Shown here piece by piece: positions 1-64,000 of a stretch of 64,000 nucleotides of DNA; position 1 is the stretch's first letter, and the number at the start of each line of letters is the position of its first letter. The notes below the pieces were generated by a model that saw only the letters and a list, made by a program, of their open reading frames with translations, made no database searches and had not been told where the DNA came from. The DNA is taken from the NCBI RefSeq assembly GCF_021917145.1, contig NC_061081.1:9838576-9902575 (forward strand). The letters are read 5' to 3'. A program made the position numbers and the translations under genes. The DNA is from Hypomesus transpacificus (lineage: Eukaryota > Chordata > Actinopteri > Osmeriformes > Osmeridae).

Positions 1-3000
1 TTGTTGGAGCCTCTGAGGTAGTTGTTGGGGAATTTGTAGGTGCAAATGTGGTTGCAGTGGGAGAAGCTGTGGTTGTGGTTGGACCAGATGTGGTCGTTGT
101 GGGAGAAGCTCTTGTTGCTGTTGGATTCTCTGTAGTAGTTGTAGGGGTAGCTGTGGTTGTAGTTGGAGCAGCTGTGGTCGTAGTGGGAGAAGCTGTGCTT
201 GTAGTTGGAGCAGCTGTGGTCGTAGTGGGAGGAGCCGTTGTTGTTGGAGCCTCTGTTGTAATAGTAGGTGCAGCTGTGGTTATATTTGGAGCCTCTGTTG
301 TAGTTGTAGGTGAAGCTGTGGTTGTTGTTTGATCCTCTCTGGTAGTTGTAGGGGCAGCTGTGGTTGTTGTGGGAGAAGCTTTTGTAGCTGTAGGTGCCAC
401 TGTGGTTGTTTTTGGAGCCTCTGTGATAGTTGTAGGTGCAGCTGTTGTTGTAGTGGGAGCAGCTGTGGTTGTTATTGGATCCTCTGGTGTAATTGTCGGT
501 GCACCTTTGGTTGTAGTGAGAGAAGCGTTGGTAGTAGTGGGAGAAACTGTGGTTGTTGTTGGAGCTTCTGTTGTAGTTGTAGTTGCAGCTGTGGTTGTTG
601 TTTGATCCTCTGTGGTAGTTGTAGGGGCTGCTGTGGTTGTTGTGGGAGCAGCTGTTGTAGTTGTAGGTGCAGCTGTGGTTGTAGTGGGGGCACCTGTTGT
701 AGTTGTAGGTGCAGTTGTGGTTCTTGTCGGAGCCTCTGCTGCAGTTGTAGGTGTAGCTGTGGTCGCAGTGGGAGCAGCCGTTGTTTTACGAGCCTCTGTT
801 GTAGTTGTAGGTGCAGCTGTGGTCGAAGTGGGAGCAGCCGTTGTTGCTGTTGTTGGAATCTCTGTTGTAATTGTAGGTGCAGCTTTGGTTGTAGTGGGAG
901 CACCTGTTGTAGTTGTAGGTGCAGCTTTGGTTGTAGCGGTAGAACCTGTTGTAGTTGTAGGTGCAGCTGTTGTTGTAGGTAGAGCGTCTGTGGTAGTTGT
1001 TTGGGCGGCTGTTGTTGTAATGGGAGCAGTTGTGGTAGTTGTAGGTGCAGCTGTGGTCATAGTAGGAGCAGCTGTTGTTGTTGAAGCCTCTGTTGTAGTT
1101 GTTGGGTTAGCTGTGGTTGTATTGGGAGCAGCTCTGGTTGTTGTTGGAGCCTGTGTTGTAGTTGTAGCTGCAGCTGTGGTTGTTGTTTGATCCTCTGTGG
1201 TAGTTGTAGGGGCAGCTGTGATTGATGTGGGAGCAGCTGTAGTAGTCGTGGGAGAAGCTGTGGTTTTAGTGGGGGCACCTGTTGTAGTTGTAGGTGCAGC
1301 TGTGATTGTTGTTGGAGCCTCTGTGGTAGTTGTAGGTGTAGCTGTGGTCGCAGTGGGAGCAGCCGTTGTTATTGGAGCCTCTGTTGTAGTTGTAGGTGCA
1401 GCTGTGGTCATAATGGGAGCATACGTTGTTGTTGTTGGAGCCTCTGTTGTAGTTGTAGGTGCAGCTGTTGTTGTAGTGGGAGCAGCTGTGGTTGTTGTTG
1501 GATTCTCTGTTGTAGTTGTAGGTACAGCTGTTGTTGTAGTGTGAGCAGCTGTGGTTGTTGTTGGATCCTCTGGTGTAATTGTGGGTGCACCTTTGGTTGT
1601 AGTGAGAGAAGCGTTGGTAGTGGTGGGAGAAACTGTGGTTGTTGTTGGAGCCTCTGTTGTAGTTGTAGCTGCAGCTCTGGTTGTTGTTGAGTTAGCTGTG
1701 GTTGTTGTTGGAGCCTCTGTTGTAGTTGTAGTTGCAGCTGTGGTTGTTGTTTGATCCTCTGTGGTAGTTGTAGGGGCAGCTGTGGTTGTTGTGGGAGCAA
1801 CTGTTGTGGTTGTAGGTGCAGCTGTGGTTGTAGTGGGGTTACCTGTTGTAGTTGTAGGTGCAGTTGTGGTTCTTGTCGGAGCCTCTGCTGCAGTTGTAGG
1901 TGTAGCTGTGGTCTTAGTGGGAGCAGCCGTTGTTGTTGTTGGAGCCTCTGTTGTAGTTGTAAGTGCAGCTGTGGTTGTAGTCGGAGCAGACGTTGTTTTA
2001 CGAGCCTCTGTTGTAGTTGTAGGTGCAGCTGTGGTCGAAGTGGGAGAACCTGTTGTAGTTGTAGGTGCAGCTTTGGTTGTAGTGGGAGAACCTGTTGTAG
2101 TTGTAGGTGCAGCTGTTGTTGTAGGTAGAGCGTCTGTGGTAGTTGTTTGGGCGGCTGTGGTTGTAATGGGAGCAGCTGTGGTAGTTGTAGGTGCAGCTGT
2201 GGTCATAGTAGGAGCAGCTGTTGTTGTTGAAGCCTCTGTTGTAGTTGTTGGGTTAGCTGTGGTTGTATTGGGAGCAGCTGTGGTTGTTGTTGGAGCCTGT
2301 GTTGTAGTTGTAGCTGCAGCTGTGGTTGTTGTTTGATCCTCTGTGGTAGTTGTAGGGGCAGCTGTGGTTGATGTGGGAGCAGCTGTGGTAGTCGTGGGAG
2401 AAGCTGTGGTTTTAGTGGGGGCACCTGTTGTAGTTGTAGGTGCAGATGTGATTGTTGTTGGAGCCTCTCTGGTAGTTGTAGGTGTAGCTGTGGTCGCAGT
2501 GGGAGCAGCCGTTGTTATTGGAGCCTCTGTTATAGTTGTAGGTGCAGCTGTGGTTGCACTTTGAGGAGCCGTTGTTGTTGTTGGAGCCTCTGTTGTAGTT
2601 TTAGGTGCAGCTGTGGTTGCACTTTGAGGAGCCGTTGTTGTTGTTGGAGCCTCTGTTGTAGTTTTAGGTGCAGCTGTGGTTGTAGTGGGAGCACCCGTTG
2701 TAATTGTAGGTGCACCTTTGATGGTAGTGGGAGAAGCTGTGGTAGTAGAGGGAGAAACTGTGGTTGTTGTTGGAGCCTCTGTTGTAGTTTGAGCTGCAGC
2801 TGTTGTTGTAGTGGGAGCAGCTGTTGTTGTTTGGCCATCAGTTGTAGTTGTAGGCACAGATGTGGTTGTAGTGGGAGCAGCTGTGGTGGTTGTTGGATCC
2901 TCTGGTGTAATTGTAGGTGCACCTTTGGTTGTAGTGGGAGAAGCTGTGGTAGTAGAGGGAGAAACTGTGGTTGTCGTTGAAGCCTCTGGTGTAATTGTAG

Positions 3001-5446
3001 GTGCAACTGTGGTTGTTGTTTTATCCTCTGTGGTAGTTGTAGAGGGCGCTGTGGTTGCAGAGGGAGAAGCTGTGGTTGTAGTTTGAGCCTCTGTTGCTAT
3101 TATAGGTGCAGCTGATGTTTTGGTAGGAGTGGCTGTTGTTGATGGAGCCTCTGTTGTAGTTGTAAGTGCAGCTGTGGTCGTAGTGGGAGCAGCCGTTGTT
3201 GATGGAGCCGCTGTTGTAGTTGTAGGTGCAGCTGTTGTTGTTGGAGTATCTGTTGTAGTTGTAGGCACAGAGGTGGTTGTAGTGGGAGCAGCTGTGGTTG
3301 TTGTTGGATCCTCTGGTGTACTTGTAGGTGCACCTTTGGATGTAGTGGGAGAAGCTGTGGTAGTAGAGGGAGAAACTGTGGTTGTTGTAGGAGCCTCTGT
3401 TGTAGTTTTAGCTGCAGCTGTGGTTGTTGTTGGGTTAGCTGTCGTTGTACTGGGAGCAGCTGTTGCTATTATAGGTGCAGCTGATGTTTTAGTAGGAGTG
3501 GCTGTTGTTGATGGAGCCTCTGTTGTAGTTGTAAGTGCAACTGTGGTCGTAGTGGGAGCAGCCGTTGTTGTTGGAGCCTCTTTTGTAGTTGTAGGCACAG
3601 ATGTGGTTGTAGTGGGAGCAGCTGTGGTGGTTGTTGGATCCTCTGGTGTAATTGTAGGTGCACCTTTGGTGGTAGTGGGAGAAGCTGTGGTAGTAGAGGG
3701 AGAAACTGTGGTTGTCGTTGAAGCCTCTGATGTAATTGTAGGTGCACCTTTGGTCGTAGTGGGAGAAGCTGTGGTAGTAGAGGGAGAAGCTGTGGTTGTC
3801 GTTGGAGCCTCGGTTGTAGTTGTAGGTGCAACTGTGGTTGTTGTTTTATTCTCTGTGGTAGTTGTAGAGGGCGCTTTGGTTGCAGAGGGAGAAGCTGTGG
3901 TTGTAGTTGGAGCCTCTGGTGTACTTGTAGGTGCACCTTTGGATGTAGTGGGAGAAGCTGTGGTAGTAGAGGGAGAAACTGTGGTTGTTGTAGGAGCCTC
4001 TGTTGTAGTTTTAGCTGCAGCTGTGGTTGTTGTTGGGTTAGCTGTCGTTGTACTGGGAGCAGCTGTGGTTGTTGTTGGAGCCTCTGTTGTAGTTGTATGT
4101 GCAACTGTGGTTGTTGTTTGATCCTCTGTGGTAGTTGTAGAGGGCGCTGTGGTTGTAGAGGGAGAAGCTGTGGTTTTAGTTGGAGCCTCTGTTGCTATTA
4201 TAGGTGCAGCTGATGTTTTAGTAGGAGCGGCTGTTGTTGTCGGAGCCTCTGTTGTAGTTGTAAGTGCAGCTGTGGTCGTAGTGGGAGCAGCCGTTGTTGT
4301 TGGAGCCTCTGTTGTAGTTGTAGGTGCAGCTGTGGTTTTAGTGGGAGCACCTGTTGTAGTTGTAGGTGCAGCTGTGGTTGTTGTTAGAGCTTCTGTGATA
4401 GTTGTAGGTGGAGCTGTGGTTTTAGTAGGAGCAGCCGTTGTTGTTGTTGGAGCCTCTGTTGTATTTTTAGGTGCGGCTGTGGTTGTAGTGGGAGCACCTG
4501 TTTTAGTTGTAGATGCAGCTGTGGTTGTTCTTGGAGCCTCTGTGCTAGTTGTAGGTGCAGCTGTGGTTGTAGTGGGAGAAGCACTTGTTGCTGTTGGATT
4601 CTCTGTGGTAGTTGTAGGGGGCGCTGTTGTTGTAGGGGGAGAAGCTGTGGTTGTAGTTGGAGCCTCTTTTTTAGTTATAGGGGGAGCAGTGGTTGTAGTT
4701 GGAGCAGCTGTGGTTGTAGTGGGAGAATATGTGCTTGTAGTTGCAGTAGCTGTGGTTGTAGTGAGAGCATCCGTTGTTGTTGGAGACTCTGTTCTAGTTT
4801 TAGGTGCAGATGTGGTTGTAGTTGGAACAGCTTTAGTTGTAGTGGGAGCAGCCGTTGCTGTTGGAGCCTCTATTGTAGTTGTAAGTGCAGCTGTTGTCGT
4901 ATTGGGAGCAGCCGTTGTTGTTGAAGCCTCTGTAGTAGTTTTAGGTGCAGCTGTTGTTGTAGTGGGAGCAGCTGTTGTTGTTGGATCATCTGTTGTAGTT
5001 GTAGGCACAGAGGTGGTTGTAGTGGGAGCAGCTGTAGTTGTTGTTGGATCCTGTGGTGTAATTGTAGGTGCACCTTTGGTTGTAGTGGGAGCAGCTGTTG
5101 TAGTTGTAGGTGCAGCTGTGGTTGTTTCAGGGGCAGCTGTTGTTTTAGTGGGAGCAGCTGTGGTTATAGTGGGAGCAGCTGTTGTAGTTGTAGGTGCAGC
5201 TGTGGTTGTTGTTGGAGCCTTTGTTGTAGTTGTAGTTGCAGCTGTGTTTTTGGTTTGATCCTCTGTGGTAGTTGTAGGGGCAGCTGTGGTTGTAGTGGGA
5301 GCAGCTGTTGTAGTTGTAGGTGCAGCCGTGGTTGTTGTTGGAGCCTCTGTTGTAGTTGTAGATGCAATAGTAGCTGTGGAAGCTGCTGTTTGAGCCTGTG
5401 TGGTTGTTGTCATAACAGAAATCTTGAAAGGAAATAGAAGAGACAT
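1..5446 (-). CDS. Giant Thr/Pro-rich mucin exon, gene D (5' part, runs off window)
   Basis: This is the start of a mucin-type giant exon continuing past base 1. From the ATG at 5446-5444 the protein begins [19 protein letters not shown] and passes directly into TTTT-A/E-AP heptad-like repeats, with no in-frame stop to the window edge (about 1,815 codons). Such Pro/Thr/Ser tracts are scaffolds for O-linked glycans. The 5' end matches the starts of genes A and B almost base for base. The pyrimidine-rich stretch ending TTTCAAG just before ATTTCTGTT (AG at 5424-5423) could be a splice acceptor, in which case the exon starts at 5422 and the first ATG is intron sequence. An imperfect repeat of about 1.1 kb lies within 480-2560 (for example 1057-1278 against 2203-2424). 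No signal peptide is evident. The mucin-like nature is clear; the true start and the 3' structure are not visible. Confidence 0.75.
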   Translation of the reverse strand, partial: MSLLFPFKISVMTTTTQAQTAASTATIASTTTTEAPTTTTAAPTTTTAAPTTTTAAPTTTTEDQTKNTAATTTTTKAPTTTTAAPTTTTAAPTITTAAPTKTTAAPETTTAAPTTTTAAPTTTKGAPTITPQDPTTTTAAPTTTTSVPTTTTDDPTTTAAPTTTTAAPKTTTEASTTTAAPNTTTAALTTTIEAPTATAAPTTTKAVPTTTTSAPKTRTESPTTTDALTTTTATATTSTYSPTTTTAAPTTTTAPPITKKEAPTTTTASPPTTTAPPTTTTENPTATSASPTTTTAAPTTSTEAPRTTTAASTTKTGAPTTTTAAPKNTTEAPTTTTAAPTKTTAPPTTITEALTTTTAAPTTTTGAPTKTTAAPTTTTEAPTTTAAPTTTTAALTTTTEAPTTTAAPTKTSAAPIIATEAPTKTTASPSTTTAPSTTTTEDQTTTTVAHTTTTEAPTTTTAAPSTTTANPTTTTAAAKTTTEAPTTTTVSPSTTTASPTTSKGAPTSTPEAPTTTTASPSATKAPSTTTTENKTTTTVAPTTTTEAPTTTTASPSTTTASPTTTKGAPTITSEASTTTTVSPSTTTASPTTTKGAPTITPEDPTTTTAAPTTTTSVPTTTKEAPTTTAAPTTTTVALTTTTEAPSTTATPTKTSAAPIIATAAPSTTTANPTTTTAAAKTTTEAPTTTTVSPSTTTASPTTSKGAPTSTPEDPTTTTAAPTTTTSVPTTTTDTPTTTAAPTTTTAAPSTTAAPTTTTAALTTTTEAPSTTATPTKTSAAPIIATEAQTTTTASPSATTAPSTTTTEDKTTTTVAPTITPEASTTTTVSPSTTTASPTTTKGAPTITPEDPTTTTAAPTTTTSVPTTTTDGQTTTAAPTTTTAAAQTTTEAPTTTTVSPSTTTASPTTIKGAPTITTGAPTTTTAAPKTTTEAPTTTTAPQSATTAAPKTTTEAPTTTTAPQSATTAAPTTITEAPITTAAPTATTATPTTTREAPTTITSAPTTTTGAPTKTTASPTTTTAAPTSTTAAPTTTTEDQTTTTAAATTTTQAPTTTTAAPNTTTANPTTTTEASTTTAAPTMTTAAPTTTTAAPITTTAAQTTTTDALPTTTAAPTTTTGSPTTTKAAPTTTTGSPTSTTAAPTTTTEARKTTSAPTTTTAALTTTTEAPTTTTAAPTKTTATPTTAAEAPTRTTTAPTTTTGNPTTTTAAPTTTTVAPTTTTAAPTTTTEDQTTTTAATTTTTEAPTTTTANSTTTRAAATTTTEAPTTTTVSPTTTNASLTTTKGAPTITPEDPTTTTAAHTTTTAVPTTTTENPTTTTAAPTTTTAAPTTTTEAPTTTTYAPIMTTAAPTTTTEAPITTAAPTATTATPTTTTEAPTTITAAPTTTTGAPTKTTASPTTTTAAPTSITAAPTTTTEDQTTTTAAATTTTQAPTTTRAAPNTTTANPTTTTEASTTTAAPTMTTAAPTTTTTAPITTTAAQTTTTDALPTTTAAPTTTTGSTATTKAAPTTTTGAPTTTKAAPTITTEIPTTATTAAPTSTTAAPTTTTEARKTTAAPTATTATPTTAAEAPTRTTTAPTTTTGAPTTTTAAPTTTTAAPTTTTAAPTTTTEDQTTTTAATTTTTEAPTTTTVSPTTTNASLTTTKGAPTITPEDPITTTAAPTTTTAAPTTITEAPKTTTVAPTATKASPTTTTAAPTTTREDQTTTTASPTTTTEAPNITTAAPTITTEAPTTTAPPTTTTAAPTTSTASPTTTTAAPTTTTATPTTTTENPTATRASPTTTTSGPTTTTASPTATTFAPTNSPTTTSEAPT

Positions 5447-6418: not shown

Positions 6419-6427
6419 ATATGAAGA

Positions 6428-6619: not shown

Positions 6620-6681
6620 ATATGAAGAAAAGGGCCTGAAAAGTCTAAAAAGATCTACATCAAAATGAACAGAAAGTTGAT

Positions 6682-6884
6682 TCAAGTGATTGGTAGTAGA
6701 AAAGTGACCATATCTACAGGTCTGCTCCTTGCCATTGCACTGCTGGTGGTGAGTTCTGTGGCAGTTTGAGCTGTTTGTGTTGTTGTACTGGTACTTGCAG
6801 CTCTACTTGTGGTTGTAGATGCTACTGTGGAATTACTTGCCTCCACAGTTGTAGGAGTTACAGTACTGGAGGCAGTTGGTTCAG
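6682..6884 (-). CDS. Gene A last exon: Ser/Thr stalk and truncated hydrophobic tail
   Basis: Final exon of gene A, joined in phase 1 to the SEA exon at 7017-7162. The acceptor reads CCCACAATAG|CTGAACC. With the split Ala codon it encodes 67 residues: a Ser/Thr-rich stalk (AEPTASSTVTPTTV...), then MARSRPVDMVTFLLPIT and a TGA stop. In genes B and C the corresponding codon is TTA and the frame continues nine more residues (LIYFLYILM in B, LVNFLYILM in C) to a TAG. Those tails have a continuous hydrophobic C-terminus, like a GPI-attachment signal or short membrane anchor. Gene A keeps only about eight hydrophobic residues, so its product may be secreted rather than anchored. Exon identity is well supported; the anchoring role is inferred. 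Confidence 0.85.
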
Positions 6885-7016: not shown

Positions 7017-7162
7017 CTGCAACAATACTGCCAGTGATAACATTCAGGAAAACCAGGGATTCATTTAAAGCCGTTTTTAATGAGTCTTCTGCACTGGTGA
7101 TGTTTGGAACTGCACTCTCATTCTGGAATATTAAATTGGCTGTGACACCCACTGACCCAGGC
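7017..7162 (-). CDS. Gene A SEA-domain exon 3 (FWPGSVGV segment)
   Basis: Internal exon of 146 nt bounded by CTTTTCAG|GCC and GTTGCAG|GTTTGT; it enters in phase 2 and leaves in phase 1. With the split Trp it encodes WPGSVGVTANLIFQNES, then about 30 residues ending VITGSIVA. SEA domains (sperm protein, enterokinase, agrin) often break themselves at a G-S-V-V-V turn; this exon carries GSVGV in that place, followed by the expected alternating hydrophobic strand. N-linked sites NES and NIT are visible. It lies between 7475-7539 and the stalk exon 6682-6884. The SEA assignment is confident; whether cleavage occurs with Gly in place of Val is open. Confidence 0.88.
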
Positions 7163-7436: not shown

Positions 7437-7474
7437 CCCCTATAAACCTAAATCTATTGTCACGGATCACTTAC

Positions 7475-7539
7475 CAAAATCCAAGAATTATGCATCTCAG
7501 GAAAGTGAAAGGGTACCGCTTCCTGTATCCCCGATTCAG
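7475..7539 (-). CDS. Gene A SEA-domain exon 2
   Basis: Small 65-nt exon between TTTTCCAG|CTGAATC and TTTTG|GTAAGT. It enters in phase 0 and leaves in phase 2. It encodes LNRGYRKRYPFTFLRCIILGF, with the last two bases completing Trp in the next exon. It continues the SEA fold after the giant exon's NVTAE and leads into the WPGSVGV strand. The same 65-nt exon with identical phases occurs at 32246-32310 and 60864-60928, differing by single substitutions (Leu to Ile at CIIIGF). Confidence 0.88.
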
Positions 7540-7628: not shown

Positions 7629-10600
7629 CTCAGCTGTGACATTGGCAGCCAGTTCTTGATATTGCGACGACTTTGGGTTGTTATATTCAATTACGAAAAC
7701 CCGCACCAAACGCATCCTCAGAAAGAGGTAACCCTCATTTTGTTGAGGGGGTTCTGTTGATGCACCTGTGCTACTGGTGGTAAATCTGGTAGTGCTAGAA
7801 GTTTGTGTCGCAGGGATAGCTATTTTGGTTGTGGATGTAGTTGAATGTGATAGAGAGGTTGGGGCTGTTGCGATACTTGTAAAATATGCTGTGGTAGTTG
7901 TAGGGGCAGCTGTGGTACTTGTAGGGTCAGCTATGGTTGTAGGAGGAGCAGCTGTGGTTGTAGTAGGAGCAGCTGTGGTTGTTGTAGGGGCAACTGTGGT
8001 TGTAATCGGAGCAGCTTTTGTAGTTGTTGGTGCAGCTGTGGTTGTTGTTGGTGCCTCTGTGATATTTGTTGGGGCAGCTGTGGTTGTAGTAGGAGCGGCT
8101 GTTGTCATTGTTGGAGACTCTGTTGTACTTGTAGGTGCATCTGTGGTTGTAGTAGGGGCGACTGTTGTCGTTGTTGGGGCGGCTGTGGTTGTAGTGGGAG
8201 CAGCTGTGGTAGTAGTTGGAGAAACTGTGGTTGTTGGTTTCAAAGCTGTGGTAGTTGTTGGGGTGGCTGTGGTTGTACTGGGAGCAGCTGTGGTTGTTGT
8301 TGAAGCCTCTGTTGTGGTTGTAGCTGCAGCTGCGGTTGTAGTGGGAGCAGCTGTGGTCGTAGTGGGAGCAGCCGCTGTTGTTGTTGGAGCCTCTGTTGTA
8401 GTTGTAGGTGCAGCTGTGGTTGTAGTGGGAGAAGCTGTGGTTGTAGTTGGGGCCTCTGTTGGTATTATAGGTGCAGCTGATGTTGTAATAGGAGCGGCTG
8501 TTGTTGTTGGAGCCCTTGTTGCTATTATGGGTGCAGCTGATGTTGTAGGAGGAGTGGCTGTTGTTGTTGGAGCCTTTGTGGTAGTTGTTGGGGAAGCTGT
8601 AGTTGTAAGTTCAGATGTGGTTGTAGTAGGAGAAGCTGTGGTTGAAGTAGGAGCACCTGTTGTAGTTGTAGGTGCAGCTGTGGTAGTTGTTAGAGCCTCT
8701 GTGGTAATTGTTAAGGCAGCTGTTGTTGTAGTGGGAGCAGCTGTGGTTGTTGTATGAGCCTCTGTTGTAGTTGCGGGTGCAACTGTTGTTGTGGTAGGAG
8801 AAGCTGTGGTTGTTGTTGAAGCCTCTGTTGTAGTTGTAGCTGCAGCTGTGGTAGTAGTGGGAAAAGCTGTTGTTGTTGGAGCCTCTGTTGTAGTTGTAAG
8901 GGCAGCTGTGGTCTTAGTGGGAGCAGCCGTTGTTGTTGTTGGATTCTCTGTTGTAGTTGTAGATGCAGCTGTGGTTGTAGTGGGAGAAGCTGTGGTTGTA
9001 GTTGGGGTCTCTGTTGGTATTATAGATTCAGCTAATGTTGTAATAGGAGCGGCTGTTGTTGTTGGAGCCTCTTTGGTAGTTGTTGGGGAATTTGGAGGTG
9101 CAGCTGTTGTTGTAGTGGGAGAAGCTGTGGTTGTATTTGGAGCAGCTCTGGTCGTAGTGTGAGAAGCTCTGGTTGCTGTTGGATTCTCTGTGGTAGTTTT
9201 ACGGGGAGCGGTGGTTGTAGTTGGAGCAGCTGTGGTTGTAGTTGGGGCCTCTGTAGCTATTAAAGGTGCAGTTGATGTTGTAGTGGGAGCGGCTGTTGTT
9301 TTTGGAGCCCTTGTTGCTATTATAGGTGCAGCTGATATTGTAGTAGGAGCGGCTGTTGTTGTTGGAGCCTCTGTGGTAGTTGTTTGGGAAGCTGTAGTTG
9401 TACGTTCAGCTGTGGTTGTAGTGGGATAAGCTGTGGTTGTTGTAGACGGAACAGCTGTGGGTGTTGTTGGAACCTCTGTGGTAGTTGTAGGGGCAGCTGT
9501 GGTCGTAGTGGGAGAAGCACTGGTTGCTGTTGAATTCTCTGTGGTAGTTTTACGGGTTGCTCTGGTGGTAGTTGGAGCAGCTATGGTCGTAGTGGGAGAA
9601 GTTGTGGTTGTAGTTGGAGCAGCAGTGGTCGTAGTGGGATTAGCCGTTGTTGTTGTTCGAGCCTCATTTGTAGTTGTAGGTGTAGCTCTGGTTGTAGTGG
9701 GAGCACCTGTTTTAGTTGTAGATGCAGCTGTGGTTGTTGTTGGATTCTCTGTTGTAGTTGTAGGTGCAGCTGATGTTGTAGTAGGAGCGGCTGTTGTTTT
9801 TGGAGCCCGTGTTGCTATTATAGGTGCAGCTGATGTTGTAGTAGGAGCGGCTGTTGTTGTTGGAAACTCTTTGGTAGTTGTTTGGGAAGCCGTAGTTGTA
9901 GGTTCAGCTGTGGTTGTAGTGGGATAAGCTGTGGTTGTTGTAGACGGAACAGCTGTGGTTGTTGTTGGAACCTCTGTGGTAGTTGTAGGGAAAGCTTTGG
10001 TTGTAGTGGGAGCAGCTGTGGTCGTAGTGGGAGAAGCACTGGTTGCTGTTGGATTCTCTGTGGTAGTTTTACGGGGAGCTGTGGTTGTAGTTGGAGCCGC
10101 TATGGTCGTAGTGGGAGAAGTTGTGGTTGTAGTTGGAGCAGCTGTGGTCGTAGTGGGAGCAGCCGTTGTTGTTGTTGGAGCCTCTTTTGTAGTTGTAGGT
10201 GTAGCTCTGGTTGTAGTGGGAGCACCTGTTTTAGTTGTAGATGCAGCTGTGGTTGCTGTTGGATTCTCTGTGGTAGTTGTAGGAGGAGCTGTGGTTGTAG
10301 TGGGAGAAGCTGTGGTTTTAGTTGGAGCCTCTGTTGCTATTATAGGTGCAGCTGATGTTGTAGTAGGAGCGGCTGTTGTTTTTGGAGCCCGTGTTAATAT
10401 TATAGGTGCAGCTGATGTTGTAGTAGGAGCGGCTGTTGTTGTTGGAAACTCTGTGGTAGTTGTTTGGGAAGCTGTAGTTGTAGGTTCAGCTGTGTTTGTA
10501 GTGGGAGAAGCTGTGGTTGAAGTGGGAGCACCTGTTGTAGTTGTAGGTGCAGCTGTGGTTGTTGTTAGAGCCTCTGTGGTAGTTGTTGCGGCAGCTGTGG

Positions 10601-28600: not shown

Positions 28601-28676
28601 TGGAAGCCGCTGTGGTTGTTTGAGCCTGTGTGGTTGTTGTCATAACAGAAATCTTGAAAGGAAATAGAAGAGACAT
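7629..28676 (-). CDS. Giant mucin exon of gene A, reading into the SEA domain
   Basis: A single 21.0 kb exon of about 7,016 codons without an in-frame stop. The N-terminus is [19 protein letters not shown]. Nearly all the rest is Thr/Pro/Ala/Ser repeats such as [14 protein letters not shown] and TTTTASP. The last 41 residues start the SEA domain (PPQQNEGYLFLRMRLV, IEYNNPKSS, NVTAE), and the exon ends in phase 0 at GCTGAG|GTAATTC. With exons 7475-7539, 7017-7162 and 6682-6884 it predicts about 7,150 residues: a heavily O-glycosylated surface or secreted mucin. The N-terminal two thirds are near-identical higher-order repeats (14995-26808); the C-terminal part is diverged. TTTCAAG|ATT at 28656-28653 may be the true acceptor, placing the start elsewhere. 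No signal peptide is obvious, and the family member cannot be named. Confidence 0.85.
14995..20901 (-). repeat. 5,907-bp higher-order repeat, copy 1 (gene A)
   Basis: Coding higher-order repeat made of units of 1,662 + 492 + 492 + 1,662 + 1,599 bp, starting at 14995, 16657, 17149, 17641 and 19303; all lengths are multiples of three. The 492-bp unit equals the 1,662-bp unit with 1,170 bp missing between two internal copies of the stretch translating as TTSVPTTTT. The 1,599-bp unit lacks 63 bp. A further, more diverged 1,662-type unit lies just below 14995. Confidence 0.9.
20902..26808 (-). repeat. 5,907-bp higher-order repeat, copy 2 (gene A)
   Basis: Repeats the order of copy 1 exactly: 1,662 (20902), 492 (22564), 492 (23056), 1,662 (23548), 1,599 (25210). 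Variants private to one unit recur at the same offset: GAGTAGCTG at about 17757 and 23664, TCTCTGTTGG at 17891 and 23798, TGTGCG at 18781 and 24688. Only scattered single-base differences were seen, such as GGAAGAAG at about 24459. A third partial unit starts at 26809 and runs to about 28070. Confidence 0.9.
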
Positions 28677-32245: not shown

Positions 32246-32310
32246 CAAAATCCAATAATTATGCATCTCAGGAAAGTGAAAGGGTAACGCTTCCTGTATC
32301 CCCGATTCAG
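32246..32310 (-). CDS. Gene B SEA-domain exon 2
   Basis: A 65-nt exon from CTAG|CTGAATC to TTTTG|GTAAGT, phases 0 to 2, encoding LNRGYRKRYPFTFLRCIIIGF. It is identical in protein to gene C's 60864-60928 and differs from gene A by one residue. It links the start of the SEA domain in 32440-32826 to the WPGSVGV exon. Confidence 0.85.
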
Positions 32311-55300: not shown

Positions 55301-58300
55301 GTAATGGGAGCAGCTGTGGTAGTTGTAGGGGCAGCTGTGGTTGTAGTGGGAGAAGCTGTTGTAGTTGTAGGTGCAGTTGATGTAGTTGTAGGAGCCTCTG
55401 TTGTAGTTGTGGGGGCAGCTGTGGTTGTAGTGGGAGCAGCTGTGGTGGTTGTAGGGGCAGCTGGGGTGGTGGTTGGCGCAGCTGTGGTTGTAGTCGGAGC
55501 AGCTGTGGTTGTAGTGGGGGCATCTGTGGTGGTTGTAGGGGCAGCTGTGATTGTAGTGGGAGCAGCTGTGGTAGTTGTATAGGGGGCTGCAGTTGTAATC
55601 GGACTAGCTGTTGTAGTTGTAGGGGCAGCTGTGGTTGTAGTGGGAGCTGCTGTGGTTGTAGTAGGAGCATCTGTCGTTGAAGTGGGTGCAGCTGTGGTTG
55701 TAGCGGGAGCATCTGTGGTTGTTGTTGAAGCCTCTGTGGTAGTGGTTGGAGCAGCTGTGGTTGTAGTGGGAGCAGCTGTTGTAGTTATAGGTATAGCTGT
55801 GTTTGTAGTGGGAGCAGCTGTGGTTGTTGTTGAAGGCCCTGTTGTAGTTGAAGGGGCAGCTGTGGTTGTAGTGGGAGCAGCTGTGGTTGTAGTGGGAGCA
55901 TCTGTGGTTGTTGTTGGAGCAGCTTTGGTAGTTGTAGGGGCAGCTGTGGTTGTAGTGGGAGAAGCAGTGGTTGTAGTGGGAGCATCTGTGGTTGTTGTTG
56001 GAGCAGGTGTGGTAGTTGTAGGGGCAGCTGTGGTTGTAGTGGGAGAAGCAGTGGTTGTAGTGGGAGAAGCTGTGGTTGTAGTGGGAACAGCTGTGGTTGT
56101 AGTGGGAGCAGCTGTGTTTGTAGTGGGAGAAGATGTTGGAGCTGTTGGAGTCTCCGTGGTGGTTGTAGCGGCAGCTGTGGTTGTAGTGGGAGCAGTTGTA
56201 GTTGTAGGTGCAGCTGTGGTTGTTGTTGGAGCCTCTGTGGTAGTTGTTGGGGCAGCTGTGGTTGTAGTGGGAGCAGCTGTGGTTGTAGTGAGAGAATATG
56301 TGGTTGAAGTGGGAGCAGCAATGGTAGTAGTGGGAAAACCTGTGGTTGTAGTGAGAGCACCTGTGATTGTAGTGGGAGCAGCTATGGTTGTTGTTGGAGC
56401 AGCTGTGGTAGTTGTAGGGGCAGCTGGGGTTGTAGTGGGAGAAGCTGTTGTAGTTGCAGGTGCAGCTGTGGTTGTTGTAGGAGCCTCTGTTGTAGTTGTG
56501 GGGGCAGCTGTGGTTGTAGTGGGAGCAGCTGTGGTTGTAGTGGGAGAAGCTGTTGTGGTTGTAGGGGCGGCTGTGGTTGTAGTGGGAGCAGCTGTGGTAG
56601 TTGTAGGGGCAGCCGTGGTTGTAGTGGGAGAAGCTGTCGTAGTTATAGATGCAGCTGTGGTTGTTGTAGGAGCCTCTGTTGTAGTTGTGGGGGCAGCTGA
56701 GGTTGTAGTGGGAGCAGCTGTGGTTGTAGTGGGAGAAGCTGTGGTTGCAGTGGGAGCATCTGTCATTGAAGTGGGTGCAGCTGTGGTTGTAGTGGAAGCA
56801 GCCGTGGTTGTAGTGGGAGCAGCTGTGGTTGTAGTGGAAGCAGCTGTGGTTGTAGTGGGAGCATCTGTGGTTGTAGTGGGAGCAGCTATGGTTGTTGTGG
56901 GAACAGCTGTGGATGTTGTTGGAGCCTCTGTGGTAGTTGTTATGGAAGCTGTGGTTGTAGTGGGAGAAGCTGTGGTTATAGTGGGAGCATCTGTCGTTGA
57001 AGTGGGTGCAGCTGTGGTTGTAGTGGGAGCAGCTGTGGTTGTAGTGGGAACATCTGTGGTTGTAGTGGAAGCAGCTGTGGTTGTAGTGGGAGCATCTGTG
57101 GTTGTAGTGGGAGAAGCTGTGGTTGTTCTTTGAGCCTCTGTGGTAGTTGTAGGTGCAGCTGATGTTGTTGTTGGAGCCTCTGATGTAGGTGCAGCTGTGG
57201 TTGTAGTGGGAACAGCCGTTGTTGTAGTTGGAGACTCTGTGGTAGTTGTAGGTGCAGATGTGGTTGTAGTGGGAGTAGCCGTTGTTGTTGTTGGAGCTTC
57301 TGTTGTAGTTGTTTGGGCAGCTGTGGTTGCAGTTGGAGAAACTTTGGTTGTTGTTGGAGCCGCTGTTGTAGTTGTAAGTGAAGCTGTGGTCGTTTTTGGA
57401 GCCTCTGTTTTAGTCGTTGGGGTGGCTGTGGTAGTAGTGGGAAAAGCTGTGGTTGAAGTGGGAACAGCTGTGGTTGTTGTTGGTTTAGCTGTGGTTGTTG
57501 TTGAAGCCTCTGTGGTAGTTGTTGGGACAGCTGTGGTTGTAGTGGGAGCAGCGGTTGTAGTTGTAGGTGCAGATGTGGTTGTAGTGGGAGCAGCTGTGGT
57601 TATTGTTGGACCCTCTGTGGTCGTTGTTTGGACAGCTGTGGTTGTAGTGGGAGCAGCTGTGGTTGTTGTTGGACCCTCTTTGGTAGTTGTTGGGACAGCT
57701 GTGGTTGAAATGAGAGCAGCTGTGGTTGTAGTGGGAGCAGCTGTAGTTGTAGTGGGAGCGTATGTGGTTGTAGTGGGAGCAGCTGTTGTTGTAGTGGGAG
57801 CAGGTGTTCTAGTAATAGTTGCAGCTGTGGTTGTAGTGAGAGCAGCTGTGGTTGTTGTTGGGGCCTCTGTGGTAGTAGTTGGAAAAGCTGTGATTTTATT
57901 GGGAAAAGCTGTGGTTGTAGTGGGAACAACTGTGGCTATTGTTGGAGCCTCTGTGGTAGTTGTAGGGGCAGCTGTGGTTGTAATGGAAGCAGCTGTGGTT
58001 GTTTGAGCCTCTGTGGTAGTTGTTGGGACAGCTATGGTTGTATTGGGAGCAGCCGTGGTTGTAGTGGGAGCAGAAGTGGTTGTAGTTGGAGCAGCTGTGG
58101 TTGTTGTAGGGGCAGCTGTGGTTATGGGTGGAGCAGCAGTTGTAGTTGTACGTGCAGCTGTGATTGTTAATGGAGACCTTGTTGTAGCTGTAAGGTCAGC
58201 TGTGGTAGGAGTGGGAAATACTGTGGTTGTAGTGGGAACAGCTGTTGTAGTTGTAGCTGCAGCTGTGGTTGTTGTTGGAGCCTCAGTTGTAGTTGTAGGT

Positions 58301-59262
58301 GAAGCTGTGGTTGTTGTTGGAGCCTTTCTGGTAGTTGTTGGGGCGGCTGTGGTAGTGGTAGAAGCAGTGGTAGTTGTAGGTTCAGCTGTGGTTGTAGTGG
58401 GAGCAGCTGAGGTTGTAGTGGGAGAAGCTGTGGTTGTTCTTTGAGCCTCTGTGGTAGTTGTAGGTGCAGCTGATGGTGTTGTTGGAGCCTCTGATGTAGG
58501 TGCAGCTGTGGTTGTAGTGGGAGCAGCCGTTGTTGTAGTTGGAGACTCTGTGGTAGTTGTTGGTGCAGATGTGGTTGTAGTGGGAGTAGCCGTTGTTGTT
58601 GTTGGAGCTTCTGTTGTAGTTGTTTGGGCAGCTGTGGTTGCAGTTGGAGAAGCTTTGGTTGTAGTGGGAGAAGCTGCAGCAGTTTTAGGTTCAGCTGTGG
58701 TTGTAGTGGGAGAAGCTGTGGATGTTGTTGGAGCCTCTTTGGTAGTTGCAGCTGTGGCTGTAGTAGGAGCAGCTGTTGTCGTTGGACTCTCTGTTGTAGT
58801 TGTTGGGGCAGCTGTAGCAGTTGTAGGTTCAGCTGTGTTTGTAGTACGAATGGCTGTTGTTGTTGTTGGAGCCTCTGATGTAGTTGTAGGTGCAGCTGTG
58901 GTTGTAGTGGGATTAACCGTTGTTGTAGTTGGAGACTCTTTGGTAGTTGTAGGAGCAGATGTGGATGTAGTGGGAGCAGCCATGGTTGTTGGAGCCTCTG
59001 TTGCGGTTATAGGTGCAGCTGATGTTGTAGGAACGGCTGTTGTTGTTGGAGCCTCTGTTGTAGTTGTTGGGTTAGCTGAGGTTGTAGTGGGAGCAGCTGT
59101 GGTTGTACTGGGAGAAGCTGTGGTTGTGGTTGGAGCCTCTGTGGTAGTTGCAGGGACAGTTGTAGTTGTAGGTGCAGTAGTAGTTTTGGTAGCCGCTGTG
59201 GTTATTTGAGCCTGTGTGGTTGTTGTCATGACAGGAATCGTGAAAGGAAATAGAAGATACAT
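34359..59262 (-). CDS. Giant mucin exon of gene B (8,301 codons)
   Basis: An uninterrupted 24.9-kb exon coding for Thr/Pro-rich repeats ([28 protein letters not shown] and similar), expected to be densely O-glycosylated. The first ATG gives [19 protein letters not shown]. The exon ends in phase 1 at ACCACAG|GTATTACC and joins 34201 in frame. Repeats are nested: units of 2,625, 1,644, 1,791, 1,311 and 1,149 bp at 36.7-51.7 kb, and a 1,956-bp tandem pair at about 52.1-56.0 kb. All are multiples of three, so the frame survives. The acceptor-like TTTCAAG of genes A and D reads TTTCACG here, so the exon start is uncertain; the next AG is in CACACAG|GCTCAA. No signal peptide is visible. An assembly artefact in such sequence cannot be excluded, but the intact frame argues for a real gene. 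Confidence 0.82.
38783..51238 (-). repeat. Array of higher-order repeats in gene B mucin exon
   Basis: A landmark (plus-strand TGAGCCTCTGTGGTAGTTG then GGACAGCTATGG) recurs at 38783, 39932, 42557, 45182, 46973, 48617, 49928 and 51239, giving spacings of 1,149, 2,625, 2,625, 1,791, 1,644, 1,311 and 1,311 bp. The 1,791-bp unit is a 1,644-bp unit with an extra 147 bp around 46590-46740. Inside the longer units a segment of about 336 bp is itself duplicated (for example at 41645 and 41981). A further landmark copy at 58013 lies beyond the array. Confidence 0.88.
51560..52260 (-). repeat. Internal copy of the 3' end of gene B's mucin exon
   Basis: Matches about 34450-35150 at an offset of 17,106 bp, including the distinctive CACTTGATTTACTTGTAGG and TTAAGATCATAGGTGCAGC stretches. 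The exon therefore contains a copy of its own C-terminal segment two thirds of the way along, consistent with a very large internal duplication followed by further rearrangement. Confidence 0.75.
52080..55990 (-). repeat. 1,956-bp tandem duplication in gene B mucin exon
   Basis: Two adjacent copies offset by exactly 1,956 bp (for example 52587-53756 against 54543-55712). Edges are approximate. A third, more diverged relative lies near the 3' end of the same exon (about 35040-36700). The length is a multiple of three (652 codons). Confidence 0.82.
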
Positions 59263-60218
59263 TATTTCACAGTGAATTGCTTTGACTATAAAATGACTCA
59301 ACAAATACTTTAATGTGTAGTTTATGCTTATTTGTCGTTTTTAGCTGTTTCCCTACTGCCACAAGAAATTGTGTATCGGACTTACGTCTTTTTCATTTAA
59401 TTGTGTTCCCAATTGGGTTTAACATGAAAACATTACAAATATTTATTTTTAAACAAATAACAGTTGAGTTGACAAATTGTTGGAAACCTTTGCAATGACT
59501 CGACACACTTGACTTTGTGACATTTATTCTTTAATTTCATTTTAAAATGTGTACAACCTTGGCCATTGGACCAGCCACCCCCATTCAGCCTCTTTATATC
59601 TTCTTCTACAATCTCAGACTTTTTACATCTCTTCACCTTCCTTGTTTGATGGCTTTAGGTCTCCCAGATTGCCACCCACAAGCCATCTCGTGAAAGTACA
59701 TGAAAGTTACATTTTGTCTGGCTGAATGCTGTTTTCCAGTTAAATAAAATAAATATTAAAGAAAAGAATATATAATGAATTATAATTAAGAAAGTTCATG
59801 TTGAGAAATTACTATGCTAAATCAATATTTAGATTTTTCTCAAACTATTCAAAACTGTTCATACATTAAAAGCAAGTGTAAATAAATATAAATATGAATA
59901 ATGATAAACAACATAAGAATATTTGCATGACAGCAATTCAAGTGTTCAAGTGCATTTTTGAATATAGAATAGTTAAATCAAACATTGTTTTAAAACATTT
60001 TCATGACAATATATTATTTAAATAGCCTAATTACATGTTCTACTTGTTTCATGTTTTGCAGCATTGCATCGATGATTTGGTTGCACAAATTCCTTTAGTT
60101 ACAGGAATGCCTTTCAAAAGTATGTTATTTTTCTTTTCGTAATTCATTTGAATTTTTATACTTTTTAGGGGTTCTGCAATTTGATATGAAGGAAAGGGCC
60201 CAAAAAGTCTGAAAAGAT
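59263..60218. other. Intergenic spacer between genes C and B
   Basis: AT-rich spacer homologous to those upstream of genes A and D but with a deletion of roughly 90 bp near 59570. It contains the conserved minus-strand TATAAAG (59592-59598) and a donor-like AAAGAC|GTAAGT near 59390. The open frame 59433-59636 is a shortened, diverged counterpart of those at 5564-5920 and 30809-31072. No signal-peptide exon is recognised. Confidence 0.55.
59592..59598 (-). promoter_or_regulatory. Possible TATA box upstream of gene B
   Basis: Minus-strand GATATAAAGAGGCTG, the counterpart of the sites at 5834-5840 and 31028-31034, about 340 bp upstream of gene B's first ATG. This spacer copy is otherwise noticeably diverged, which makes retention of the TATA core slightly more suggestive than in the closer copies. 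Confidence 0.3.
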
Positions 60219-60448
60219 CTACATCAAAATGTACAGAAAGTTGACTAAAGTGATTGGTAGTAGAAAAGTGACCATATCTACAGGTTTGCTCCTTGCCATT
60301 GCACCGCTGGTGGTATGTGCTGTGGCAGTTTGAGTTGTTTGTGTTGTTGTACTGGTACTTGCAGCTGTACTTGTGGTTGTAGATGCTACTGTGGAATTAG
60401 TTGCCTCCACAGTTGTAGGAGTTACAGTACTGGAGGCAGTTGGTTCAG
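60219..60448 (-). CDS. Gene C last exon: Ser/Thr stalk and hydrophobic C-terminus
   Basis: Phase-1 exon after CCCACAATAG, about 77 residues: AEPTASSTVTPTTVEATN, a Thr/Ser stalk, MARSKPVDMVTF and the hydrophobic end LLPITLVNFLYILM, stop TAG. It is the same length as gene B's and retains the full hydrophobic tail missing in gene A. It is followed downstream by the spacer and then gene B. Confidence 0.82.
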
Positions 60449-60611
60449 CTATTGTGGGAAAAAATAAAAACATTGTTTCTACAATTTGCTTCCACAAAGT
60501 TATCAAGATGTTTGATTCATACAACATTTTCAATATACTGAGCTTGATAACATTTCTTTTTTTCCCAAATGTGAAAATAATGAAAATATTGACATTGTGA
60601 TCAGTACAAAC

Positions 60612-60757
60612 CTGCAACAATACTGCCAGTGATAACATTCAGGAAAACCAGGGATTCATTTAAAGATGTTTTTAATGAGTCTGCTGCACTGGTGATGCTT
60701 GGAACTACACTCTCATTATGGAATATCAAGTTGGCTGTGACACCCACTGACCCAGGC
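60612..60757 (-). CDS. Gene C SEA-domain exon 3
   Basis: A 146-nt exon, phases 2 to 1, bounded by CTTTTCAG|GCC and GTTGCAG|GTTTGT. It encodes WPGSVGVTANLIFHNESVV, SAADSLKTSLNESLVFLNV and TGSIVA. The GSVGV variant of the SEA self-cleavage turn is shared by all three complete copies, so it is a family trait rather than a lesion in one gene. Confidence 0.85.
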
Positions 60758-60863
60758 CTGAAAAGTAGAGATTCATAAATGGATTGTTAATCCTCAAGCA
60801 ATAGAGCATGAATACATTGAAAGAGCCAACATGAACCTAAATCTCCTGTCACAGATCACTTAC

Positions 60864-60928
60864 CAAAATCCAATAATTATGCATCTCAGGAAAGTGAAAG
60901 GGTAACGCTTCCTGTATCCCCGATTCAG
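60864..60928 (-). CDS. Gene C SEA-domain exon 2
   Basis: A 65-nt exon, phases 0 to 2, from CTAG|CTGAATC to TTTTG|GTAAGT, encoding LNRGYRKRYPFTFLRCIIIGF. The protein is the same as in gene B's counterpart at 32246-32310. Confidence 0.85.
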
Positions 60929-61057
60929 CTAGAAGATATGATGAAAAAAATGGATTGATTATTGCACAGAGAACATATGAAAACATCAAGTATTGAAAAA
61001 TCAATGTCAAATAATTTTCTTATTGAATTGAAGCGATGGGTTTTAGATGAGAATTAC

Positions 61058-61444
61058 CTCAGTTGTGACATTGCCAGCCAGTTCTTGATATTGCGACGAC
61101 TTTGGGTTGTTGTATTCAACAATGAAAACCCGCACCAAACGCATCCTCAGAAATAGGTAACCCTCATTTGGCTGAGGGGGGTCTGTCGATGCGACTGTGC
61201 TAGTGGTGGTTAATCTGGTAGTGCTAGAAGTTTGTGTCGCAAGGATAGCTGTTGTGGTTGTGGATGTAGTTGATTGTGGTAGAGAAGTTGGGGCTTTTGT
61301 GATACTTGTATTTAGTGTGACATTTGGGGTTGAGATTGCCATTGTGGTGTGTGCAGTAGCCATGGTTGATGCCATTGTTAAAGATGTGTCAGTTGTAGAT
61401 GAAAATGTTGTAGATGCCTGACTGACAGTTGGTGAACTAGTTAT
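61058..61444 (-). CDS. Gene C SEA-domain exon 1 with short Thr/Ser-rich leader
   Basis: A 387-nt exon, phase 0 to 0, giving the same protein as gene B's 32440-32826 (ITSSPTVSQ..., PPQPNEGYLFLRMRLV, VEYNNPKSS, NVTTE). As in gene B, it cannot be joined directly to the phase-1 end of the upstream giant exon (62977) without an immediate stop. Its 5' partner exon is not identified. Confidence 0.8.
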
Positions 61445-62622
61445 CTGGAAAAGACAAAAGAAGATTGGATAAATTAGTTGTTGAAAGAACATAATTTGAT
61501 CACCATATGTTTAACATGTAGGAGTTCAAATCATGTCTTCATGTTTAGTTTTGATGCATGCATATCATTCTAACATTGTATATAGAATGTTGTGATTAAG
61601 ACTGATTACAAGAAAACCTTACAGAGACTAGGCTTTGCCTGTGTTGAGGGAATAATCTCCTTCAATGCACTGGTTAGGGCACATTAGACTTGGAATAAAC
61701 ATGACATAAACATTGTAATTCATCCTTACATTAAATGTAGAATCCTTGAAGCAATAATCTGACTCTTTGAAGACGTTTCACTCAAAGTAGCATTGATGTT
61801 GTCAGAGTGGATGAAAAAAAACTGGATGTCCTACTGCATCTGGTCGCATTTTACAGTATATAAAGCAGCATGCTTTTCTTGCTATTCCGACCCACAGCGC
61901 TCTGCGCAGTGTAAGATACGTCACATTAACATAACTACATACACGACAAAGTAACAGCAGCAGCGCTCTGCTGATTGTCCTGGTTAGCTACGCATAGTTT
62001 TGTATCAGATGGCTGAGCGGTTAGGGAGTCGGGCTATTAATCAGAAGGTTGTTGTTTTAATTCCTGGCCGTGCCAAATAACATTGTGTTCTTGGGCAAGG
62101 AACTTCGCCCGACTTGCCTTGTGGAGAATGTACCTGTACTTACTGTAAGTCGCTCTGGATAAGAGCGTCTGCTAAATGACTAAATGTAAATGTATCTCCA
62201 AGTAAAACGTTTTTTTGCCGCCACAATTTTTTCAACATTTTGCGTAACAAACTTTGAGAGATGTACTATATGAGCAAGTCAGTCAAAGTTCAAGGTGCGA
62301 TATTATTATAAAGTGTTTTGCCCCAATTGCATGCATACTTAATGCAACAGTACATACTTTGTATGGCCAGCAGCAATATACTAAATGTAAAAGAAAAGTG
62401 TGCGATTTAAGATACAGGGCCAACTCACTGTAAATTGTAGTTAACAGGCGAACCGATATTTGTTAGGAAACATTACATCATGGTAAGTGTCTTTAATAAT
62501 AAGTAACTAATTTTAAATTGAACTATATTTTGTATATTCTGTTCATATATACATGTACTTTCTGGCTGTATATATACACATACAGTACATATACACACAG
62601 TCAGACAAATCATATACATGAA
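61445..62622. other. Non-coding gap between the gene C tail exon and SEA set
   Basis: Near-identical to 32827-34004 at an offset of 28,618 bp. It contains the SINE at 62007-62190 and no recognisable exon. Confidence 0.55.
62007..62190 (+). mobile_element. tRNA-derived SINE between gene C exons
   Basis: Orthologous insertion to 33389-33572, with the same TGTATC duplication and stem-loop tail. A single base in the body (ACCTGT against ACTTGT) separates the two as read by eye. Confidence 0.88.
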
Positions 62623-62819
62623 TTATATTAGGAATTGTAAACAAATTATTTGGACTTTAATTATTGGGAGGGAAAACTGAAAGTTCGTGAAAAATAGTAA
62701 AGTGACCGCAAGTTTGGGTCTTTCTCTTGCCATAATGCTGTCAGAAGTGGTTTGAATGGCGGATGATGTCAAACTTGTGATGCTTGTCGAAGAAGCAATT
62801 GTGGTAGAAGATGGCAGTT
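62623..62819 (-). CDS. Gene C alternative C-terminal exon with hydrophobic tail
   Basis: The same 197-nt exon as 34005-34201, accepting the phase-1 end of the giant exon at 62977 across a 157-bp intron. It encodes ELPSSTTIASSTSITS, MARERPKLAVTLLFFTNF and a hydrophobic C-terminus. It would give gene C's mucin a membrane or GPI-like tail without a SEA domain. Confidence 0.7.
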
Positions 62820-62976
62820 CTGTGAAAAAATAATATTTGTTTGAATACACATTTTAATTCAATGACCAACTTCTTGCAAAGCATCTACATTATATTTCCT
62901 TTTTTTGGAAGCTGCAGTACAGTGACAGGAGCTGATGTTTTGATTCATATTAATTAACTTCTCATTTTGGTAATAC

Positions 62977-64000
62977 CTGTGGTGGTTGAAATGGTAGGAG
63001 AATTTGTAGTTTGAACAGCTGTGATTGTTGTTGAAGACACTGTAGTTATTATGGGAGAAGCTGTGGTTGTAGTGGGATCAGCTGTTGTAGTTGTTGGTGC
63101 AGCTGTGGTTGTTGCTGGAGCTTCTGTGGTGGTTGTAGGGGCAGGTGTGGCTGTAGTGGGAGCACTTGATTTACTTGTAGGTGCAGTTGTGGATGTTGTT
63201 GGAGCGACTGTGGTAGTTGTAGGTGCAGATGTGGTTGTAGTGGGAGCAGCTGTTACTGTTGTTTGAGCCTCTGTTAAGATCATAGGTGCAGCTGATGTAG
63301 ATGTAGGGGCAGCTGTGGCTGTAGTGGGAGCAACTGTTGTAGTTGTAGGTGCAGCTGTGGTTGTTGTTGGAACCTCTGAGGTAGTTGTTGGAGCAGCTGT
63401 TGTTATAGTGGGAGCAGCTGTGGTAGTAGTGGGAGAAAATGTGGTTGTAGTGAGAGCAGCTGTAGTAGTAGTGGGAGGACCTGTGGTTGTAGTAGGAGCA
63501 GCTGTTTTAGTTGTAGGTACAGCTGTGGTTGTAGTTGGAGAAGATGTTGGAGCTGTTGGAGCCTCTGTGGTGGTTGTAAGGGCAGCTGTGGTTGTAGTGG
63601 GAGCAGCTGTGGTAGTTGTAGGGGCAGCTGTGGTTGTAGTGGGAGCAGCATTGGTTGTAGTGGGAGCATATATGGTTGTAGTGGGAGCACCTGTTGTAGT
63701 TGTAGTGGGAGCAGCTGTGGTAGTTGTAGAGGGAGCTGTAGTTGTAATGGGAGCAGCTGTTGTAGTTATAGGGGCAGCTGTGGTTGTAGTGGGAGCAGCT
63801 GTGGTTGAAGTGGGAGCATCTGTGGTTGTAGTGGGAGAAGCTGTTGTGGTTGTAGGGGCAGCTGTGGTTTTAGTGGGAGCAGCTGTGGTAGTTGTAGATG
63901 CAGCTGTGGTTGTTGTAGGAGCCTCTGTTGTAGTTGTGGGGGCAGCTGAGGTTGTAGTGGGAGCAGCTGTGGTTGTAGTGGGAGAAGCTGTTGTGGTTGT
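62977..64000 (-). CDS. Giant mucin exon of gene C (3' end only, runs off window)
   Basis: The last roughly 341 codons of a Thr/Pro-rich mucin exon that enters from beyond base 64000. It ends in phase 1 at ACCACAG|GTATTACC. It matches gene B's exon end (34359-35382) at an offset of 28,618 bp with almost no differences; one visible change is GTAGAGGGAG at about 63727 against GTAGGGGGAG. It is expected to be O-glycosylated like its paralogues. Confidence 0.8.

Follow-up and report, generated by a model that had tools for sequence, protein, structure and literature searches.

Membrane mucins carry an O-glycosylated domain rich in proline, threonine and serine (PTS), which forms a stiff brush, and a SEA domain, which cleaves itself and can unfold under tension; a large PTS exon is also found in the gel-forming mucins MUC2 and MUC5. 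The locus described here lies in a stretch of 64,000 nucleotides (the window) from the fish Hypomesus transpacificus (contig NC_061081.1, below C22, positions 9,838,576 to 9,902,575). On its minus strand the window carries four head-to-tail units, each with a Thr/Ala/Pro-rich mucin exon, and it probably belongs to a tandem cluster of the teleost type, encoding SEA-associated cell-surface mucins with predicted glycosylphosphatidylinositol (GPI) anchors. Its closest counterparts in layout are the human genes MUC3A, MUC3B, MUC12 and MUC17 at 7q22, described as tandem genes with SEA downstream of single giant PTS exons, of 15,873 bp in MUC3A and 39,267 bp in exon 2 of MUC3B; cleavage and mechanosensing are described as well for SEA-type membrane mucins (PMC9578598).

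The two loci differ at the protein end and in their surroundings. The C-terminus of human MUC3B consists of a transmembrane domain and a cytoplasmic tail with a PDZ motif, whereas the window units have GPI-type ends; the MUC3 cluster is described as having ACHE, TRIM56 and SERPINE1 for neighbours (PMC9578598), whereas aspartoacylase-domain and CoA-ligase-domain frames flank the fish cluster. MUC16, which has several SEA domains (PMC1552070), resembles gene ABC, a neighbour of the window with two SEA domains in its model; it differs in that giant PTS exons alternate here with SEA modules and the end is of GPI type. Among fish, gilthead sea bream Muc13 and I-Muc are membrane mucins with SEA, and the available portion of their description mentions neither a giant exon nor a cluster (PMC3680472). 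An older survey is reported to list only Muc13 and a MUC1-like protein as Fugu transmembrane mucins (PMC1552070). A zebrafish lateral-line mucin was rejected as a relative, its paper describing CysD proteins (PMC11765562). The general kind of gene, with a giant PTS exon and SEA in a tandem cluster, is known. Novelty as a family is unproven because the literature search, with most subscription journals outside its reach, was limited; it returned no description of a fish GPI or SEA mucin cluster among the matches listed, where the GPI-mucin papers, by title, dealt mostly with trypanosomes.

Organization of the mucin units

The mucin exons of units 2 and 3 are complete within the window, and those of units 1 and 4 are cut by its ends. 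Their open frames, all on the minus strand, were listed at 64000-62954 (unit 1, cut), 59340-34336 (unit 2, 8,334 residues), 28736-7614 (unit 3, 7,040 residues) and 5461-2 (unit 4, cut); these units correspond to modules E, F, G and H of the wider cluster. The frames of units 2-4 stay open upstream of their in-exon ATG. Counted from this ATG, the giant exon of unit 2 (34359..59262, about 24.9 kb) comprises 24,903 nucleotides and 8,301 residues without a stop, 51.5% of them Thr, and that of unit 3 (7629..28676) 21,048 nucleotides and 7,016 residues, likewise without a stop and with 48.4% Thr. The Pro share is 12-13% in both, and in Thr/Pro content and length the two exons have the long PTS domain of a SEA-type membrane mucin. 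Seven-residue units, with the consensus PTTTTAA, make up most of the length of both exons.

The visible parts of all four mucin exons contain 48-52% Thr and no Cys. The Cys-rich VWD, CysD and CK domains of gel-forming mucins were found neither there nor in the joined small exons, in which SEA is the sole Pfam domain. The original prediction, made from the letters of the window, had compared the exons with those of MUC16 and MUC5. MUC5-like mucins are the wrong comparison because of the missing Cys; MUC16 is nearer for the multi-SEA neighbour ABC, and the MUC3/12/17 group, which had been missed, is nearer in layout. The prediction had also considered stop-free exons of this size very rare in vertebrates, and exon 2 of human MUC3B is larger still (PMC9578598). 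It described four minus-strand paralogues lying head to tail, two of them in full, as the open frames confirm, and its homology of start regions, SEA exons and spacers holds for all three. Its description of the genes as single-exon ones does not hold.

In the three visible 3' ends the first SEA exon (SEA0) is followed by SEA1 (65 nucleotides) and SEA2 (146 nucleotides), with canonical splice borders. The mucin exon of unit 1 ends at 62977..64000, with a donor after 62977 in phase 1 and a 500-N gap interrupting the exon just beyond the window. Downstream of it lie an alternative terminal exon (Alt, 62623..62819) that precedes the SEA exons, matches the phase of the mucin donor and is weakly similar to the terminal exon T, then SEA0 (61058..61444), which requires upstream phase 0, SEA1 (60864..60928), SEA2 (60612..60757), which carries a PGSVGV motif, and T (60219..60448), with a GPI-type hydrophobic tail followed by a stop. 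Unit 2 repeats this order with Alt at 34005..34201, SEA0 at 32440..32826, out of phase with the mucin donor, SEA1 at 32246..32310, SEA2 at 31994..32139 and T, again with a GPI-type tail, at 31632..31861. In unit 3 SEA0 is part of the mucin exon, the mucin and first SEA part being fused in frame, and SEA1 (7475..7539), SEA2 (7017..7162) and T (6655..6884) follow. Positions 1..5446 hold the first 5,446 nucleotides of the 23,472-nucleotide mucin-SEA exon of unit 4; completed beyond the window, this unit gives a model of 7,971 residues with an intact GPI-type tail, ending TTSGAMARSKPVDMVTFLLPFTLVNFLYILM.

The profile search of the joined small exons, which the prediction had proposed as a check, matched Pfam SEA (PF01390) with E 7.4e-07 for the whole joined protein and 8.2e-08 for the SEA part alone, or 29.7 and 32.8 bits against a cut-off of 26.4. 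All five distinct modules of the cluster matched, and the motif PGSVGV is unchanged in the five. No match was found in NCBIfam, no relative among 13 pattern matches in IMG/VR, and none that was credible when the sequences of the PDB were queried with a single SEA domain and with a five-row profile, the top matches there being antibody or unrelated chains.

A GPI signal has small residues and a polar spacer ahead of a C-terminal hydrophobic tail. The terminal exon encodes this layout and then an immediate stop, and in units 1, 2 and 4 the pattern is complete. The sequence before the tail is TTSGA-MARSKPVDM (TTSSA-MARSRPVDM in unit 2), the 17-residue tails of these three units have mean Kyte-Doolittle values of 2.02-2.27, and in the reading frame the stop follows directly, leaving no transmembrane segment with a cytoplasmic tail in units 1, 2 and 4. 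These features suggest a GPI-type tail rather than a transmembrane segment at the predicted C-terminus.

Each of the three spacers in the window retains an AATAAA signal, and their start regions align; the common signal and the short distance to the next start agree with separate genes. Several repeats were observed in and around the units. A 1.9-kb insertion between units 2 and 3 (28800-30738), missing from the other two spacers, has the ends GGGTCAA and TTGACCC and a duplication of 4-5 bases, resembles a DNA transposon and adjoins a TATAAA upstream of the unit 3 start. At the gathering threshold, Rfam detected in the window only three UnaL2 tails of long interspersed elements (62132-62185, 33514-33567 and 6556-6609), at the same place in units 1 and 2 and after the terminal exon in unit 3; an inverted copy related to this tail lies in an intron of unit 3 (7249-7434). 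The three UnaL2 tails fit fish DNA, presumably that of a teleost. ARAGORN found nothing in the window.

Coding status and the wider cluster

An open frame is weak coding evidence here when taken alone, because few single substitutions would create a stop: 657 of the 74,709 that are possible in unit 2 and, in unit 3, 687 of 63,144 (0.9-1.1%). Under neutral simulation of the distinct seven-codon units, the third-position rate would leave 3.5, 5.5 and 2.4 of them with a stop in units 2, 3 and 4, and the overall rate 0.8, 1.7 and 0.8; none was observed. In this simulation the first two slots have, by construction, no variation at codon positions 1 and 2, and the position-by-position contrast was not used. 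With so few substitutions giving stops and so few stops expected, the long open frame was rejected as a proof of coding.

Better coding evidence comes from the ratio of nonsynonymous to synonymous change (dN/dS) between internal duplicates of the mucin arrays. It was 0.44-0.71 in all ten pairs from units 2 and 3 (Fisher p < 0.05 in eight) and 0.62-0.91 in four pairs from unit 4 (p < 0.05 in one), the pairs being chosen from the longest duplications, overlapping and hence not independent. Unit 3, for instance, contains a duplication of 6,590 bp (98.6% identity, offset 5,907), and unit 2 one of 4,249 bp (97.7% identity, offset 2,625). Every offset considered is divisible by 3 (the longest 25 of 946 in unit 2, the longest 25 of 262 in unit 3, and all 18 in unit 4). 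In the SEA core dN/dS was 0.30-0.48 in nine of ten module pairs and 0.84 in the tenth. The SEA exons differ at 1.8-8.5% of sites without insertions or deletions, whereas two of their introns differ at 9.5-26.5% and do contain them (seven of seven module pairs), a two- to fivefold lower divergence of the exons; SEA0 was cut to its last 120 nucleotides for this comparison, and the third intron was excluded for a short interspersed element in unit 3. Open frames, purifying selection, SEA homology, the in-phase joins of gene ABC and of units 3 and 4, and the tail pattern are established at the level of the sequence.

The cluster extends beyond the window. In a search of the 437-Mb assembly (376 contigs, best candidates scored) with a SEA query, all 24 matches with E <= 0.001 among those listed fell within 9.82-9.944 Mb of C22, where they form eight modules, A-H. 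A tblastn search over 324 kb added ten SEA-like modules on both strands, reaching 10.004 Mb, its remaining rows being the query finding its own source. The total is 18 SEA or SEA-like modules across about 185 kb. The ten outer modules are called SEA-like by tblastn only, the SEA2 query of the window reaching them all with E from 2.4e-08 to 0.027, and none of three upstream SEA-like exons tested singly matched Pfam.

Upstream of the window, modules A, B and C are modelled as gene ABC, with eight in-phase exons, 6,841 residues, no stop, a signal-peptide exon and two SEA domains, as compared with one at most per window unit. Its PTS exons measure 7,601, 5,261 and 7,191 nucleotides, with the two SEA modules between them, and the first two are fused with SEA0. 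Joined to the terminal exon of C the model reaches 6,917 residues with a GPI-type tail, in the order signal peptide-PTS-SEA-PTS-SEA-PTS-GPI tail, and joined to Alt of C it reaches 6,906 residues. The second and third PTS exons (B and C) open with the head of a terminal exon and then pass into the mucin array; this arrangement suggests that an exchange between PTS sequences removed an end and a start and so fused the genes.

On the plus strand, a divergent paralogue with a clear signal-peptide exon was observed at C22:9963030-9966991, where the mucin and SEA-side frames disagree near the 3' end, a mismatch that could come from a frameshift or from misassembly. Farther along, at C22:9969084-9977986 (+), three units that resemble one another and are spaced by about 3 kb contain PTS and SEA-like exons, and a frame starting at 9977986 encodes a GPI-type peptide ending ...TLILLQVVQMLAGL. 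Frames flanking the cluster (C22:9769712-9800533) matched the Pfam CoA-ligase (one of two pieces above cut-off) and aspartoacylase families, and short-chain dehydrogenase below cut-off; we take these genes to be SUCLG1, BDH2, SLC9B and ACY3, the piece guessed as SLC9B having no Pfam match. Beyond the cluster (C22:10013320-10068940) lie what are presumably a zinc-finger gene, a SET-domain methyltransferase and an AIP-like gene, reminiscent of human 11q13.

Alternative readings of the units

Several observations weigh against a cluster of SEA-associated, GPI-anchored mucins. All gene models rest on genomic sequence. The mucin exons of units 1 and 2 end in phase 1 and SEA0 requires phase 0, and that of unit 2, spliced straight to SEA0, meets a stop after two codons, so that neither unit has an in-phase mucin-SEA join. 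The last PTS exon of ABC is likewise out of phase with SEA0 of C and reaches the terminal exon only by skipping the SEA exons of C. The SEA motif reads GSVGV, as against the canonical cleavage motif GSVVV, and a premature stop truncates the tail of unit 3 to 8 hydrophobic residues. No signal-peptide exon common to units 2-4 was found between terminal stop and start. Single units have hydrophobic ATG peptides (mean Kyte-Doolittle up to 3.19) that are not common to the units, and the in-exon start M(Y/S)LLFPF... is only moderately hydrophobic (1.52-1.69), as compared with 3.27 and 3.42 for the signal peptides of gene ABC and the plus-strand copy; a clear candidate is thus present in ABC and only the weak in-exon one in units 2-4. 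Among the three window copies, dN/dS over a longer coding part including the terminal exon is 0.94-1.25, with 0.72-0.91 in the SEA part of that comparison, and it rises to 1.8-4.0 when the terminal exon, with its 1-2 synonymous changes, is taken by itself.

The alternative that survives best concerns unit 1, which has an even chance of being an assembly artefact, in which contig ends overlapping by about 10 kb were set side by side with a 500-N gap and left unmerged. The run of N starts one base past the window end, and the 10,131 bases to its left (53870..64000, without strand; 9892445-9902575 on the contig), which reach the gap, recur to its right (9904039-9914169) with 2 mismatches, which makes a false duplication of unit 1 possible. 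In an ungapped comparison, in turn, the 963 bases next to the gap on its right have no match, and farther out a period of 16,495 bp recurs, with 2 mismatches in 16,182 (9904039-9920220 and 9920534-9936715) and no gap inside, which argues for real recent duplication here or for wider artefacts. Between units 1 and 2 a stretch of 3,048 bases (60953-64000 and 32335-35382) contains 4 mismatches, with ordinary divergence beyond it; very recent exchange and false duplication are about equal as explanations of the near-identity around unit 1. With a gap inside near-identical units, copy number cannot be read from the assembly by users of the genome, and both the copy count and the gene models of the cluster need care.

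Nearly as plausible, though falling a little short of even, is the reading of units 1 and 2, together with the near-identical C and D, as SEA-less mucins, in which the mucin exon would splice to Alt or to the terminal exon and the SEA exons would be leftovers or rare isoforms. The mucin frame of unit 2 runs in phase into Alt (8,366 residues) and into T (8,377 residues) and, as noted, stops in SEA0. The likeness of Alt to the terminal exon has a small margin, because its local score of 63, reached by none of 1,000 shuffles, compares with a best shuffle of 62. A search for an intermediate exon that would correct the phase gave one candidate, of 23 nucleotides, against a mean of 1.04 in 100 simple letter shuffles; on the other side, the best shuffle score equalled or beat that of the candidate in just 3 of the 100, the SEA0 acceptor scores best of the five compared (15.26), and the SEA exons of units 1, 2, C and D are still open. 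Gene ABC joins PTS and SEA in one frame twice, and units 3 and 4 do so as well; in units 1 and 2 direct splicing fails. As a gene model, unit 3 and the completed unit 4 carry the SEA mucin label securely; for units 1 and 2 the phase mismatch leaves it tentative. Of the local duplication that the original prediction had proposed for a SEA mucin family, a duplicated giant-mucin family with SEA exons stands; four independent SEA mucins are not supported, given the phase of units 1 and 2 and the position of unit 1 at the gap.

That the window units are decaying duplicates of a working gene ABC is unlikely. The negative search for a common signal-peptide exon, the truncated tail of unit 3, the phase mismatch of units 1 and 2 and the dN/dS near 1 over the longer stretch all fit decay; against it stand the selection on the mucin arrays and SEA core, the integrity of unit 4 through its tail, the same phase limit in the last exon of ABC as in unit 2 and, weakly when taken alone, the absence of a stop in 24.9 and 21.0 kb. 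It is more improbable still that a single transcription unit spans A-H and uses alternative ends, chaining as many as eight SEA modules in the manner of MUC16, as the in-phase chaining of A, B and C with no ends between them and the open frames upstream of the ATG of units 2-4 might suggest, for each of the units C to H has a terminal exon with a stop and the three window spacers keep their AATAAA and aligned start region.

Predicted proteins and their significance

In the favoured reading of a cluster of SEA-associated, GPI-anchored mucins, one exon of tandem seven-residue units (PTTTTAA) in each gene would encode a Thr-rich PTS domain of thousands of residues, and in complete members three further coding parts would then supply the SEA domain, each from its own exon or fused to the mucin exon, and a terminal exon the hydrophobic tail that would direct GPI attachment. 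The PTS domain, densely O-glycosylated, would stand off the epithelial surface as a micrometre-scale brush; at 0.2-0.3 nm per residue, 7,000-8,000 residues correspond to about 2 micrometres. The SEA domain would act as the break point, permitting shedding under strain, and the tether would here be a lipid. In this we infer expression, the modelled splicing, glycosylation, GPI attachment, SEA cleavage and an epithelial location. Unequal but in-frame exchange between PTS repeats would enlarge both arrays and genes and could also fuse neighbouring genes.

A wider proposal is more tentative, and we hold it to be somewhat doubtful: that the fish lineage has a class of SEA mucins that are GPI-anchored and not transmembrane, whose cluster holds as many as 18 SEA or SEA-like modules and whose neighbouring genes become fused when PTS exchange deletes the end and start between them. 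If it is true, the largest surface mucins of fish would be held by a lipid, in place of the transmembrane segment found in mammals, and their shedding could then be controlled by lipases besides the SEA break. PTS-driven fusion would also be a visible route to MUC16-like mucins with multiple SEA domains, and the cluster would show gene fusion through PTS repeats caught in progress.

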